Below, piece after piece: positions 15,823 through 20,304 of a stretch of DNA of 64,000 bases; the stretch's first letter is position 1; every line of letters begins with the position of its first letter. The translations under genes and the position numbers were made by a program. Source of the stretch: Kaistella palustris DSM 21579 (GTDB lineage Bacteria; Bacteroidota; Bacteroidia; Flavobacteriales; Weeksellaceae); NCBI RefSeq assembly GCF_000422265.1, contig NZ_AULL01000017.1:186001-250000 (forward strand), written 5' to 3'. The notes under the pieces are model-generated. The model had not been told where the DNA came from. It did no database searches and saw only the letters and a program-made list of their open reading frames with translations.

Positions 15823-15837
15823 TTTCGTATTTTGATA

Positions 15838-15845
15838 CAAAAATA
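15838..15845 (-). promoter_or_regulatory. -7 promoter box of the SpoU methyltransferase gene
   Basis: TATTTTTG on the minus strand, 15 bases before the ATG at 15822. Confidence 0.55.
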
Positions 15846-15960
15846 ATTCTTGAACGCGAAGAACACTAATAATTTATCTGGATTAATAAAAAAGACTTTT
15901 ATTTGATTTTTCGAAATCTAATTTAATAATGTTATTATGATACTTTATTTTCTATTTTCC

Positions 15961-15994
15961 TTTGTTTATATATATATATATATATATATATTTG
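15961..15994 (+). promoter_or_regulatory. Promoter with a (TA)12 microsatellite spacer, probably phase-variable
   Basis: A -33 TTTG (15961-15964) and a -7 TATATTTG (15987-15994) are separated by 22 bases that consist almost wholly of TA repeats. The uninterrupted TA run covers 15967-15990 (12 units), the last two units forming the start of the -7 box. Loss or gain of TA units by slippage would change the spacing in 2-base steps without touching either element. The ATG of the surface protein is 20 bases downstream. Confidence 0.6.
15967..15990. repeat. (TA)12 dinucleotide tract
   Basis: Twelve perfect TA units in the spacer of the promoter of the T9SS repeat protein. It is the only long simple-sequence tract I noticed between genes in this window. 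Confidence 0.9.
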
Positions 15995-16013
15995 TTTTAC
16001 TTGAATTCCCGCT

Positions 16014-17570
16014 ATGAAAAAAATATTTCTACTTTTTACCTTGATTTCATCTTTTCTGATGGTTGCACAAACAGCACCTTCCATTCAATGGCAAAAATCG
16101 CTTGGTGGAACTAGTCGCGATACAGCTAAGTCAATTCTGCAGACTTTAGACGGTGGTTATATTCTTGCAGGATATTCTCAGTCGAATGATGGAGATGTTA
16201 GCGGGAATCATGGTGGTTGGGACTATTGGATTGTTAAACTCGACCAAAGTGGTAATGTCCAGTGGCAAAAATCGCTCGGTGGTGGCCAGTCCGACTACGC
16301 GCAGTCTGTTCAACAATCAGCTGACGGGGGTTATATAGTAGTTGGTTATTCTGAGTCAAATGACGGTGATGTAAGTGGAAATCACGGTGATTACGATTAT
16401 TGGATCGTGAAGCTCGACAGTAGTGGAAACATTCAATGGCAAAAATCGCTTGGCGGCAGTTATGAGGATTTCGCTAAATCCGTTCAGCAAACCGCAGATG
16501 GCGGTTATATAGTGGGTGGATATTCACAGTCAAATGATGGCGATATTACTGGCCATTACGGCAATTATGATTATTGGATCGTGAAGCTCGATAGCAGCGG
16601 TAATATACAGTGGCAGAAATCGCTGGGCGGAACTGGCGAAGATCGAGCAAATTCAGTACGACAAACAACAGATGGTGGTTATATTATCGGCGGATATTCT
16701 CGGTCCGTTGACGGTAATGTCAGTGGGAATCACGGTGATTACGATTATTGGGTTGTAAAGCTTAACAGCATTGGTAACGTCCAATGGCAGAAATCTTTTG
16801 GCGGAAGCAGTATTGATATTGCTACTTCAGTTCAGCAAACTACAGACAGCGGCTATATCATTGCAGGATATTCTTCTTCAACTGACGGTGATGTGAGTGG
16901 ACATCACGGAAATGGGGGTGTTTATCCTGATTATTGGATCGTAAAGATTGACAGCAATGGTACTATCCAATGGGAGAAATCTCTCGGCGGAATGTTTGGA
17001 GATTTTGCTTACGCCATTCGACAGACAAACGATGGCGGGTATATTGTAGCCGGTGAATCATGGTCTAGTGATGGCGATGTGAGTGGACATAAGGGAAGTA
17101 CATCTTCTTCTGACTATTGGATTGTTAAGCTTAACAGCATCGGTAATATCCAGTGGGAAAAGTCACTCGGTGGATATGATAATGATATAGCCAGCTGCAT
17201 TCAGCAAACTGCGGACGACGGTTATATTGTTGTGGGAGAGTCGATTTCAGATGATGGTGATGTCAGCGGACACCATGGATCAACAGTTTATAATGATGTA
17301 TGGGTAGTAAAACTCACTGCGGAAGGTTTGGCAACAGATGAAACAAATATTACCAAAATCAATATTTACCCAAATCCTGTAAAAGATATTCTCAATTTTT
17401 CAGAAGAAGTTTTGAACGTAAAAATTACGGATGTTTCCGGAAAAACGGTAAAACAAATTTCGGCGAAAGGAAAATCGATAGATATTTCTGGCCTTACAAA
17501 AGGCGTTTACATTATCTCTGCAACTACAAAAGCTGGAGAAACCGTAAATAAAAAAATTGTGAAAGAGTAG
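16014..17570 (+). CDS. Secreted seven-repeat surface protein with T9SS sorting domain
   Basis: A 518-residue protein. A signal peptide (1-19, ending MVAQ) is followed by seven tandem units of 58-62 residues (about 24-440), each of the form QWQKSLGG..D.A.S..QT.DGGYI..GYS.S.DGDVSG.HG..DYWIVKL. The Trp of the first QWQ is W26. The tail (about 447-518, with INIYPNPV, ITDVSGKTV and GVYIISATTKAG) is a type A T9SS sorting domain, so the protein should cross the outer membrane and be anchored or released. Seven similar four-strand-like units suggest a seven-bladed beta-propeller, which is inference. Function is unknown; adhesion or glycan binding are options. Expression is probably phase-variable through the promoter repeat. 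Confidence 0.85.
   Translation: MKKIFLLFTLISSFLMVAQTAPSIQWQKSLGGTSRDTAKSILQTLDGGYILAGYSQSNDGDVSGNHGGWDYWIVKLDQSGNVQWQKSLGGGQSDYAQSVQQSADGGYIVVGYSESNDGDVSGNHGDYDYWIVKLDSSGNIQWQKSLGGSYEDFAKSVQQTADGGYIVGGYSQSNDGDITGHYGNYDYWIVKLDSSGNIQWQKSLGGTGEDRANSVRQTTDGGYIIGGYSRSVDGNVSGNHGDYDYWVVKLNSIGNVQWQKSFGGSSIDIATSVQQTTDSGYIIAGYSSSTDGDVSGHHGNGGVYPDYWIVKIDSNGTIQWEKSLGGMFGDFAYAIRQTNDGGYIVAGESWSSDGDVSGHKGSTSSSDYWIVKLNSIGNIQWEKSLGGYDNDIASCIQQTADDGYIVVGESISDDGDVSGHHGSTVYNDVWVVKLTAEGLATDETNITKINIYPNPVKDILNFSEEVLNVKITDVSGKTVKQISAKGKSIDISGLTKGVYIISATTKAGETVNKKIVKE
16086..17330 (+). repeat. Seven in-frame tandem coding repeats, first five spaced exactly 174 bp
   Basis: The QW-start of each unit falls at 16086, 16260, 16434, 16608, 16782, 16968 and 17151. 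The first four intervals are exactly 174 bp, then 186 and 183. Neighbouring units stay similar at the DNA level (for example TATTGGATCGTGAAGCTCGA recurs), so unit gain or loss by recombination is possible. Confidence 0.85.
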
Positions 17571-17598
17571 AGTAATCCCAAATATGCATTTTTAAAAA

Positions 17599-17631
17599 AC
17601 CTCAGAACTTTATAAATTCTGAGGTTTTTTT
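17599..17631 (+). terminator. Terminator of the repeat-protein gene
   Basis: Perfect 10-bp stem AACCTCAGAA / TTCTGAGGTT with a short loop, followed by T residues to 17631. It separates the surface-protein gene from mutS. Confidence 0.85.
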
Positions 17632-17690
17632 ATGGCAAAAACAAAATTTTTCTTTTTTACTCAAGGGGAATCTTTACTCTCTAAAAACAG

Positions 17691-17698
17691 TATTTTTG
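17691..17698 (+). promoter_or_regulatory. -7 promoter box of mutS
   Basis: TATTTTTG, 26 bases upstream of the ATG at 17725. The more distant ATG at 17632 sits before this box, inside the terminator tail, and is therefore not used. Confidence 0.55.
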
Positions 17699-17724
17699 TA
17701 AAAACTTATTCAATAAATCCAAAT

Positions 17725-20304
17725 ATGGCAAAGAAAGAAACTCCTTTAATGACGCAGTACAACACCATCAAGGCGAAATATCCGGATGCGCTATTGCTGT
17801 TTCGTGTAGGCGATTTCTACGAAACTTTTGGAAGCGACGCCGTGCGGACTTCGCAGATTTTGGGAATAGTGCTGACTAAAAGAGCGAATGGTGAAGGGCA
17901 TATCGAACTCGCAGGGTTTCCGCATCATTCGATCGATTCTTATTTGCCTAAACTCGTGCGTGCAGGTCTGCGTGTAGCAATTTGCGACCAGCTCGAAGAT
18001 CCCAAATCCGTGAAAGGAATTGTAAAACGCGGCGTGACCGAACTCGTAACTCCCGGCGTTACTTTTAATGAGCAGGTGCTTACATCGAAGCAGAATAATT
18101 TCCTGCTTTCCATTCACAAAGAAAAAGAAAAATACGGGATTGCCCTGGTAGATGTTTCTACAGGCGAATTCCTGACCGCTGAAGGCAATCTGGAAAAACT
18201 ACTGCATATTGTAGGGACTTTTGAGCCGAGCGAGATCATCTATCAGCGCCTGACTGAGCTTCCCACACAACTCAAGAACAGGAATTCATTTAAACTCGAA
18301 GACTGGGCTTTTCAGTATAATTACGCCTACGAAAAACTCACAAACCATTTCAAAACGCAGTCGCTGAAAGGTTTCGGTATTGAAGATCTGACTCTTGGAA
18401 TCACCGCGGCCGGAGCGATTTTCGCGTATCTGGTAGAAGATACACACCACGCGCTTTTGCAGCATATCTCAAAAATTCAACTGATCCCGCAGGACGATTA
18501 TCTGATGATGGATCACTTTACGCTGCGGAATTTAGAGATCGTTTGCCCAAGTCATCCCAGAGGGAAATCGCTGCTCGATATCATCGATAAAACCTCTACG
18601 CCAATGGGCGGAAGATTGCTGCGGCGAAGGCTGATCCTGCCTTTAAAATCAGTGAGTGAGATCAACAGAAGACTTGATCTGATCGAATTCTTTAATAAAA
18701 ATGAAAATCTGAAGTATGAAATCCTGCAGCTGCTGAAATCGATTTCGGATCTCGACCGTCTGCTGGGGAAACTTGCCTCAGAAAAAATTTGCCCGAAAGA
18801 AGTGGGTTATCTGCGGCAGAGTTTCGGCAGCATCCAAAAAATTAAAGAACTCCTGCATCCACATGCTGAGGTTTTGGCGTGGCTTTCACCTTTGGCAAAT
18901 ATCAGCGATCTCATTGGTTATTTAAATAATTACCTGAATGACGACCTGCCTGTAAATATTGCCAAAGGCTCCGTCATAAAAACGGGTATTTCCGAAGAGC
19001 TCGATCATTTGCGCGGCCTTCAGAACAAAGGAAAAAACTTTCTGGATGAAATGTGCGAACGCGAGATCAAACGCACCGGAATCTCCAGCCTGAAAATCAG
19101 CTTTAATAATGTATTCGGCTACTTTATCGAGGTTCGGAATACGCATAAAGATAAAGTTCCCGGGGACTGGATCCGCAAGCAAACGCTCGTCAACGCCGAA
19201 AGGTACATTACCGAAGAACTGAAGGAATACGAAGAACAGATCCTGGGCGCCGAGGAAAAGATCTCGCGGATCGAGCATCAGCTCTACCGCAAAGTCTGCG
19301 AAAATATCATGATCTACCTGGATCAGATCCAGGAAAATTCCGGGATAATTGCCGAACTCGACTGTGCGGTTGGCCTTTCGGAACTTGCTGTTACCGAGAG
19401 TTATACCAAACCCGTTTTAAACGATTCTTTCGAGATCAATTTAAAGGAGGGCCGGCATCCGATCATCGAAAATGCCTTGCCTTTGGGCGAAAAATACATT
19501 CCGAACGATTTGTTTTTGTCTAAAGACACCCAGCAGATCATCATGGTGACAGGACCGAATATGGCCGGAAAATCCGCGATTTTAAGACAGACTGCCATTA
19601 TCTGTTTGATGGCGCAGATCGGCAGTTTTGTGCCGGCAAAACATGCTGAGATCGGAATTTTAGATAAAATTTTTACGAGAGTTGGCGCTTCAGATAATAT
19701 TTCTTCCGGCGAGTCGACATTTATGGTGGAGATGAATGAAGCAGCTAATATCCTGAACAATATTTCCGAGCGCAGTTTGATTCTCCTTGATGAGATCGGC
19801 CGCGGAACTTCTACCTACGACGGGGTTTCGATCGCCTGGGCAATTGCGGAATATCTGCACCAACATCCCACGCAGGCGAAAACGCTCTTTGCCACGCATT
19901 ATCATGAACTGAACGAAATGACGGTAAATTTTGAGAGGATCAAGAATTTTCACGTGTCCATTCAGGAGCATAAAGGAAATATCATTTTTCTGCGGAAGTT
20001 AGTTTCCGGCGGCAGTGAACACAGTTTCGGGATCCATGTCGCGAAACTTGCGGGAATGCCTTCCACCGTGGTAAACAGGGCAAATGAGATCTTAAAAACT
20101 TTAGAAAAAAGCCGTTCCCAAAGCGGTTCGAAAAAATCTGCCAAAGCAATTACCGATGAAAGTTTGCAGTTGTCTTTCTTTCAGTTAGACGATCCTGTTC
20201 TGGAAAATATTCGTGAAGAATTATTGAAAATCGACGTTAATACATTGACGCCAATCGAAGCTTTAATGAAGCTGAATTCGATTAAAAAAATGATCGGACG
20301 TTAG
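17725..20304 (+). CDS. mutS: DNA mismatch repair protein MutS
   Basis: An 859-residue mismatch-recognition ATPase. The N-terminal mismatch-binding domain carries the F-x-E motif (F31, E33 in GDFYETFG). Connector, lever and clamp domains follow, then the ATPase with Walker A GPNMAGKS (610-617), the STFMVEMNE segment, Walker B ILLDEIGRGTSTYDG and FATHYHEL. Length is that of MutS1. It starts repair of base mismatches and small slippage loops. By position it is next to the gene with the (TA)12 promoter; this is probably coincidence, but MutS status would control the switching rate of that tract. Confidence 0.95.
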   Translation: MAKKETPLMTQYNTIKAKYPDALLLFRVGDFYETFGSDAVRTSQILGIVLTKRANGEGHIELAGFPHHSIDSYLPKLVRAGLRVAICDQLEDPKSVKGIVKRGVTELVTPGVTFNEQVLTSKQNNFLLSIHKEKEKYGIALVDVSTGEFLTAEGNLEKLLHIVGTFEPSEIIYQRLTELPTQLKNRNSFKLEDWAFQYNYAYEKLTNHFKTQSLKGFGIEDLTLGITAAGAIFAYLVEDTHHALLQHISKIQLIPQDDYLMMDHFTLRNLEIVCPSHPRGKSLLDIIDKTSTPMGGRLLRRRLILPLKSVSEINRRLDLIEFFNKNENLKYEILQLLKSISDLDRLLGKLASEKICPKEVGYLRQSFGSIQKIKELLHPHAEVLAWLSPLANISDLIGYLNNYLNDDLPVNIAKGSVIKTGISEELDHLRGLQNKGKNFLDEMCEREIKRTGISSLKISFNNVFGYFIEVRNTHKDKVPGDWIRKQTLVNAERYITEELKEYEEQILGAEEKISRIEHQLYRKVCENIMIYLDQIQENSGIIAELDCAVGLSELAVTESYTKPVLNDSFEINLKEGRHPIIENALPLGEKYIPNDLFLSKDTQQIIMVTGPNMAGKSAILRQTAIICLMAQIGSFVPAKHAEIGILDKIFTRVGASDNISSGESTFMVEMNEAANILNNISERSLILLDEIGRGTSTYDGVSIAWAIAEYLHQHPTQAKTLFATHYHELNEMTVNFERIKNFHVSIQEHKGNIIFLRKLVSGGSEHSFGIHVAKLAGMPSTVVNRANEILKTLEKSRSQSGSKKSAKAITDESLQLSFFQLDDPVLENIREELLKIDVNTLTPIEALMKLNSIKKMIGR

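Follow-up and report, generated by a model that had tools for sequence, protein, structure and literature searches.

A (TA)12 microsatellite in the probable promoter of a secreted beta-propeller gene of Kaistella palustris: a candidate length-tunable spacer

The window, that is the whole stretch of 64,000 nucleotides from Kaistella palustris DSM 21579 that was analysed, carries a gene for an exported beta-propeller protein between a trmH-like gene and mutS. A long TA dinucleotide tract lies immediately upstream of the propeller gene, and the locus comprises the following features:

15961..15964, plus strand: TTTG, candidate -33 element, predicted to lie at -38 to -35
15967..15990, no strand assigned: (TA)12 dinucleotide tract, repeat count as given by the assembly
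15987..15994, plus strand: TATATTTG, -7 element, 27 nt before the ATG and kept in the orthologue
15999, plus strand: predicted transcription start
16014..17570, plus strand: gene for an exported seven-bladed beta-propeller with T9SS type A sorting domain (PF18962, TIGR04183), 518 aa
17595..17631, plus strand: intrinsic terminator, 13-bp stem followed by a T run (RNA fold -14.4 kcal/mol, z -5.4)
17691..17698, plus strand: TATTTTTG, separate -7 element of mutS, 31 nt before its ATG at 17722
17722..20304, plus strand: mutS (MutS domains I-V), a neighbour outside the unit and a conserved neighbour of the trmH-like gene

The product of the propeller gene combines the N-terminal signal peptide and the C-terminal Por_Secre_tail of T9SS type A cargo. 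Its N-terminus is hydrophobic and is scored as a signal peptide by a crude rule, and its C-terminus matches the sorting-domain profiles PF18962 (5.6e-14) and TIGR04183 (1.8e-11). Seven WQKSLGG-type repeats start near residues 26, 84, 142, 200, 258, 320 and 381, and an AlphaFold2 model (mean pLDDT 77.7) predicts seven four-stranded blades and a C-terminal domain. The description of an exported seven-repeat T9SS protein in an earlier note on this DNA is thus borne out by the sorting-domain profiles, the repeats and the predicted blades. The nearest solved fold, and best Foldseek match, is the CylK propeller, which the predicted fold resembles. Pfam matches to DUF4438 and YbjN were rejected as repeat noise, as no single stretch passed alone. 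With T9SS-sorted beta-propellers of the SBBP/delta-60 type the protein shares the signal peptide, the seven repeat blades and the Por secretion tail; it differs from them in that its repeat region is strongly diverged from that of its own orthologue. This region (16073-17330) is far more diverged than the two ends of the gene (92% identity for the sorting domain as for the first 60 nt), as if the blades had been exchanged or were evolving rapidly.

As judged from the sequence, the propeller gene most likely forms a transcription unit by itself, with a promoter and a terminator of its own, and transcriptional coupling of mutS to it is not expected. While mutS is indeed the next gene, as had been pointed out in the earlier note, it starts at 17722, past the strong terminator, and its adjacency is not meaningful because its pairing with the trmH-like gene is ancestral: across the genus nearly every examined species has the two as neighbours, most of them directly side by side, and only in two species was the propeller gene found between them. 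mutS as a functional partner was rejected in view of the terminator, its own promoter and this ancestral synteny. Although the longest mutS frame opens at 17632, in the terminator region, translation probably begins at 17722, in agreement with the orthologues of the genus. The junction between the trmH-like gene and mutS (15823-17722) is a site of insertions: two species have the propeller gene there and another has a different gene of 211 aa (L055), and the gap is enlarged in a few more genomes (L051, L063, L066).

From 15961 to 16016 the sequence reads TTTG-TT-(TA)12-TTTG-N19-ATG, the ATG at 16014 being the start codon of the propeller gene. The tract claimed in the earlier note is real: it occupies 15967-15990, is the sole TA run of at least seven units in the 2.98-Mb genome (G+C content 42%, measured over 310 kb) and is beyond chance, runs of eight units being absent from dinucleotide-preserving shuffles of the window. 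In its length and its position 5' of a surface gene it corresponds to the dinucleotide tracts of about nine or more units of hif-type promoters. It had been placed exactly between TTTG and the -7 element; the spacing of 22 nt from TTTG to TATATTTG holds, the exactness does not, since TATATTTG begins with the last two TA units, and two T's stand between TTTG and the tract.

TATATTTG is well supported as a -7 element by its sequence context because the motif TANNTTTG occurs in sense excess upstream of genes (75 sense, 46 antisense and 18 reversed sites in 310 kb of the same contig) and because its distance from the start codon is the modal one. Among 138 TANNTTTG sites located 14-60 nt before an ATG in 710 kb of the organism's own genome the mode is 22-29 nt, and the 27 nt found here fall inside this range, so that a sense TANNTTTG stands at the usual ATG distance of Bacteroidota sigma-A promoters. 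With the -7 geometry established for F. johnsoniae (T at -12, G of TANNTTTG at -5; PMC6847099), transcription is predicted to start near 15999 and the leader would be about 15 nt long. For TTTG at a spacing of 22 an assignment as -33 element is plausible on sequence grounds. The spacing is long for such an element because TTTG would lie at -38 to -35 if transcription starts around 15999. TTG is present 17-23 nt 5' of TANNTTTG at 28 of the 138 sites (20%), compared with 8 to 16 in other windows of seven offsets, with 19-22 as the enriched spacings; the longer TTTG occurs in the same range at 13/138 sites versus 3/138 at control offsets. Likewise, in the transcriptome of F. johnsoniae AT-rich motifs at -18 and -28 were stronger than the -33 element, which was 'much less evident' (PMC6847099). 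The -33 element of this genome is thus real but optional and weakly used. Of the -33/-7 pair proposed earlier, the -7 element stands on modal distance and sense excess, whereas the -33 element is a weak one. Very probably the (TA)12 tract is a slippage-prone microsatellite within a genuine sigma-A-type promoter.

Among the 36 genomes of the genus that were compared, only one further species carries the propeller gene between the trmH-like gene and mutS. Its promoter reads TTTG-TT-(TA)4-TTTG, the tract being 16 bp shorter, and the -7 element, the gene start and the flanks are conserved: identity amounts to 87% over 15841-15966 and to 92% over the first 60 nt of the gene, with 79% over the coding parts of the trmH-like gene and mutS. 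The count of TA units across related genomes, which had been put forward as a check, therefore differs, with 12 units here and four in the syntenic orthologue. As far as two orthologous promoters from two species can tell, the tract appears hypervariable and changes much faster than its surroundings, because its length shifted from 12 to 4 units, or the reverse, next to a conserved -7 element, gene start and flanks. In the orthologue the spacing from TTTG to TATATTTG is 6 nt; no TTG stands 17-23 nt 5' of TATATTTG, and this promoter showed no conserved inverted or operator-like sequence. The gene is kept under (TA)4 although its promoter offers no usable -33 element, which speaks against -33 spacing being strictly required.

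The same architecture recurs in other Bacteroidota. A scan of about 85,000 species with the pattern TTTG-N0-14-(TA)8-TTTG matched 24 places, 17 of which were counted as Bacteroidota (sixteen so titled and one titled Wenzhouxiangella, whose encoded protein has a T9SS-like end and which is possibly mis-binned). The matches outside the Bacteroidota lie mostly inside a gene or have no nearby sense gene downstream; most Bacteroidota matches are followed by a sense gene for an exported or membrane protein, as in the following cases:

Hanstruepera ponticola: (TA)9, 43 nt before the ATG of a gene for a T9SS-sorted protein
Candidatus Alistipes avicola (L132:3440-3524): (TA)12 with a spacing of 22, as in Kaistella palustris, before a gene for a leucine-rich lipoprotein
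Muribaculaceae and Rikenellaceae: matches before genes for lipoproteins
Marinilabiliaceae: match before a gene for a TonB-dependent receptor

For the (TA)12 promoter of the Alistipes lipoprotein no orthologous promoter was found in Alistipes relatives for comparison. Orientation is biased as well: in a class-wide sample of 395 genomes 15 matches with at least five TA units, besides the one in the window, stood against 4 reversed ones (binomial p 0.019), and the genomes bearing hits yielded 6 new matches and 0 reversed. Seventeen matches stand 12-70 nt from a downstream ATG, and for 15 of them the gene that follows encodes a protein with a signal peptide, a lipoprotein or a membrane protein, compared with 49 of 138 (36%) at ordinary TANNTTTG sites of this genome (Fisher 4e-5); among the genes around the matches the share is 41/143. 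Of these matches, all with tracts of at least eight units (9/9) precede exported or membrane proteins. These counts were obtained with a crude signal-peptide rule, with membrane proteins included and with a set defined after the first matches had been seen, and we regard the bias towards exported genes as a lead, not as proof. The architecture is rare: with at least six units it is present in 3/320 genomes of the family, and a sample of the phylum, mostly from distant classes, gave matches in 3/395. Two further matches came from a sample of the order, one 31 nt before a gene for a protein without signal peptide and the other within a gene in a genome of 0.6 Mb. In other members of the family, most long TA tracts lie outside such promoters. 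In one genome of the same family (L069) a gene for an exported protein lies about 112 nt downstream of TTTG-N-(TA)6-TTTG. The recurrence of TTTG-(TA)n-TATATTTG, its sense bias and the exported genes that follow it support a wider candidate class of length-tunable promoters. Tentatively, and with some doubt, these may be contingency promoters scattered over the Bacteroidota, in which a TA microsatellite fills the gap between the -33 and -7 elements and extends into the latter, and in which slippage would retune single genes for secreted proteins, lipoproteins and TonB receptors.

For the promoter in Kaistella palustris we propose, with about even confidence, that slippage of the spacer tunes transcription of the secreted propeller in graded, length-dependent steps. 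In this sigma-A-type promoter the (TA)12 tract would act as the spacer and also supply the upstream half of the -7 element. A change in copy number would leave TATATTTG intact and would shift TTTG and the AT-rich helical-phase elements 5' of TATATTTG in steps of 2 bp; the earlier expectation that slippage alters the spacing by 2 nt at a time and spares the elements agrees with this, as TATATTTG would survive a change in length. Transcription of the propeller gene would then vary by degrees rather than strictly on or off. Directly seen are the tract, the position of the -7 element, the difference in length between species and the recurrence before exported genes of the phylum; we infer the variation in length within a population and its effect on expression. 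With a weak -33 element the spacing itself may matter little.

Neutral expansion is a serious rival, even if it is somewhat improbable. In such a scenario slippage in this lineage started from the TATATATTTG motif of an ordinary -7 promoter, and any AT-rich spacer was tolerated without a useful effect on expression. The weak use of the -33 element, at the 138 TANNTTTG sites as in F. johnsoniae (PMC6847099), is consistent with this, as are the retention of the gene under (TA)4, the long non-promoter TA tracts in other genomes of the family and the rarity of the architecture there; sense-oriented recurrence in Bacteroidota together with the bias to exported-protein genes argues against it. A strict switch of the hif type is unlikely and, because the -33 element is weak, less likely than length-dependent tuning. 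One or two repeat numbers would have to place the -33 TTTG correctly and all other lengths would have to silence the gene, whereas some 80% of TANNTTTG sites lack a TTG at 17-23 nt and an orthologue with a spacing of 6 has been retained. The present spacing of 22 does fall into the enriched range of 19-22, 11 units would give 20, and the architecture resembles the (TA)9-11 of hifA/hifB (PMC2651432). The phase-variation switch suggested in the earlier note therefore stands as far as the mobility in length between species is concerned, and is weakened as a strict, -33-dependent on/off device by the 28/138 sites and the (TA)4 orthologue. That the tract acts through DNA structure, as TA DNA that melts readily or forms a cruciform, or as the binding site of a regulator, with its length incidental, is very improbable: its single-strand DNA fold is better than that of every shuffle, which any TA run would show, but four units suffice in the orthologue and no conserved operator-like sequence accompanies them.

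Graded tuning by slippage would have an established precedent in the hifA/hifB fimbrial promoter of Haemophilus influenzae with its (TA)9-11 (PMC2651432), and the parallel drawn earlier is apt. In hifA/hifB a TA tract is located between core promoter elements, its copy number alters their spacing and a surface structure is driven; the present tract would match this, with TTTG as a candidate -33 element. Unlike the divergent hifA/hifB promoter, the promoter described here is not divergent; its -33/-7 elements are of the Bacteroidota type, the tract overlaps the -7 element, the -33 element is weak in this group, and the system is a candidate read from sequence. Within the Bacteroidota the known route to phase variation is inversion, and a review from 2025 treats Bacteroides mainly for inversion and does not mention Flavobacteria (PMC11868660). 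The invertible Bacteroides promoters for capsule and SusC/SusD resemble the present case in that expression of surface proteins is variable through TANNTTTG promoters of the same phylum; they rely on site-specific inversion, whereas microsatellite slippage is the only candidate mechanism here. At the level of titles and abstracts, phase variation by slippage was not found in the open-access literature for Flavobacteriia, in line with the earlier note, or for Bacteroides. Promoters acting through repeat slippage would thus be new for Bacteroidota relative to the searched literature, in which inversion dominates. If the -7 element does contain a length-tunable spacer, these bacteria would have in it a simple means of surface variation that is open to testing, and TTTG-N-(TA)n-TTTG in front of an exported gene would provide a search pattern applicable to genomes and read sets alike. 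Should the wider class exist, its contingency promoters would act by slippage, in parallel to the known invertible promoters of the phylum.
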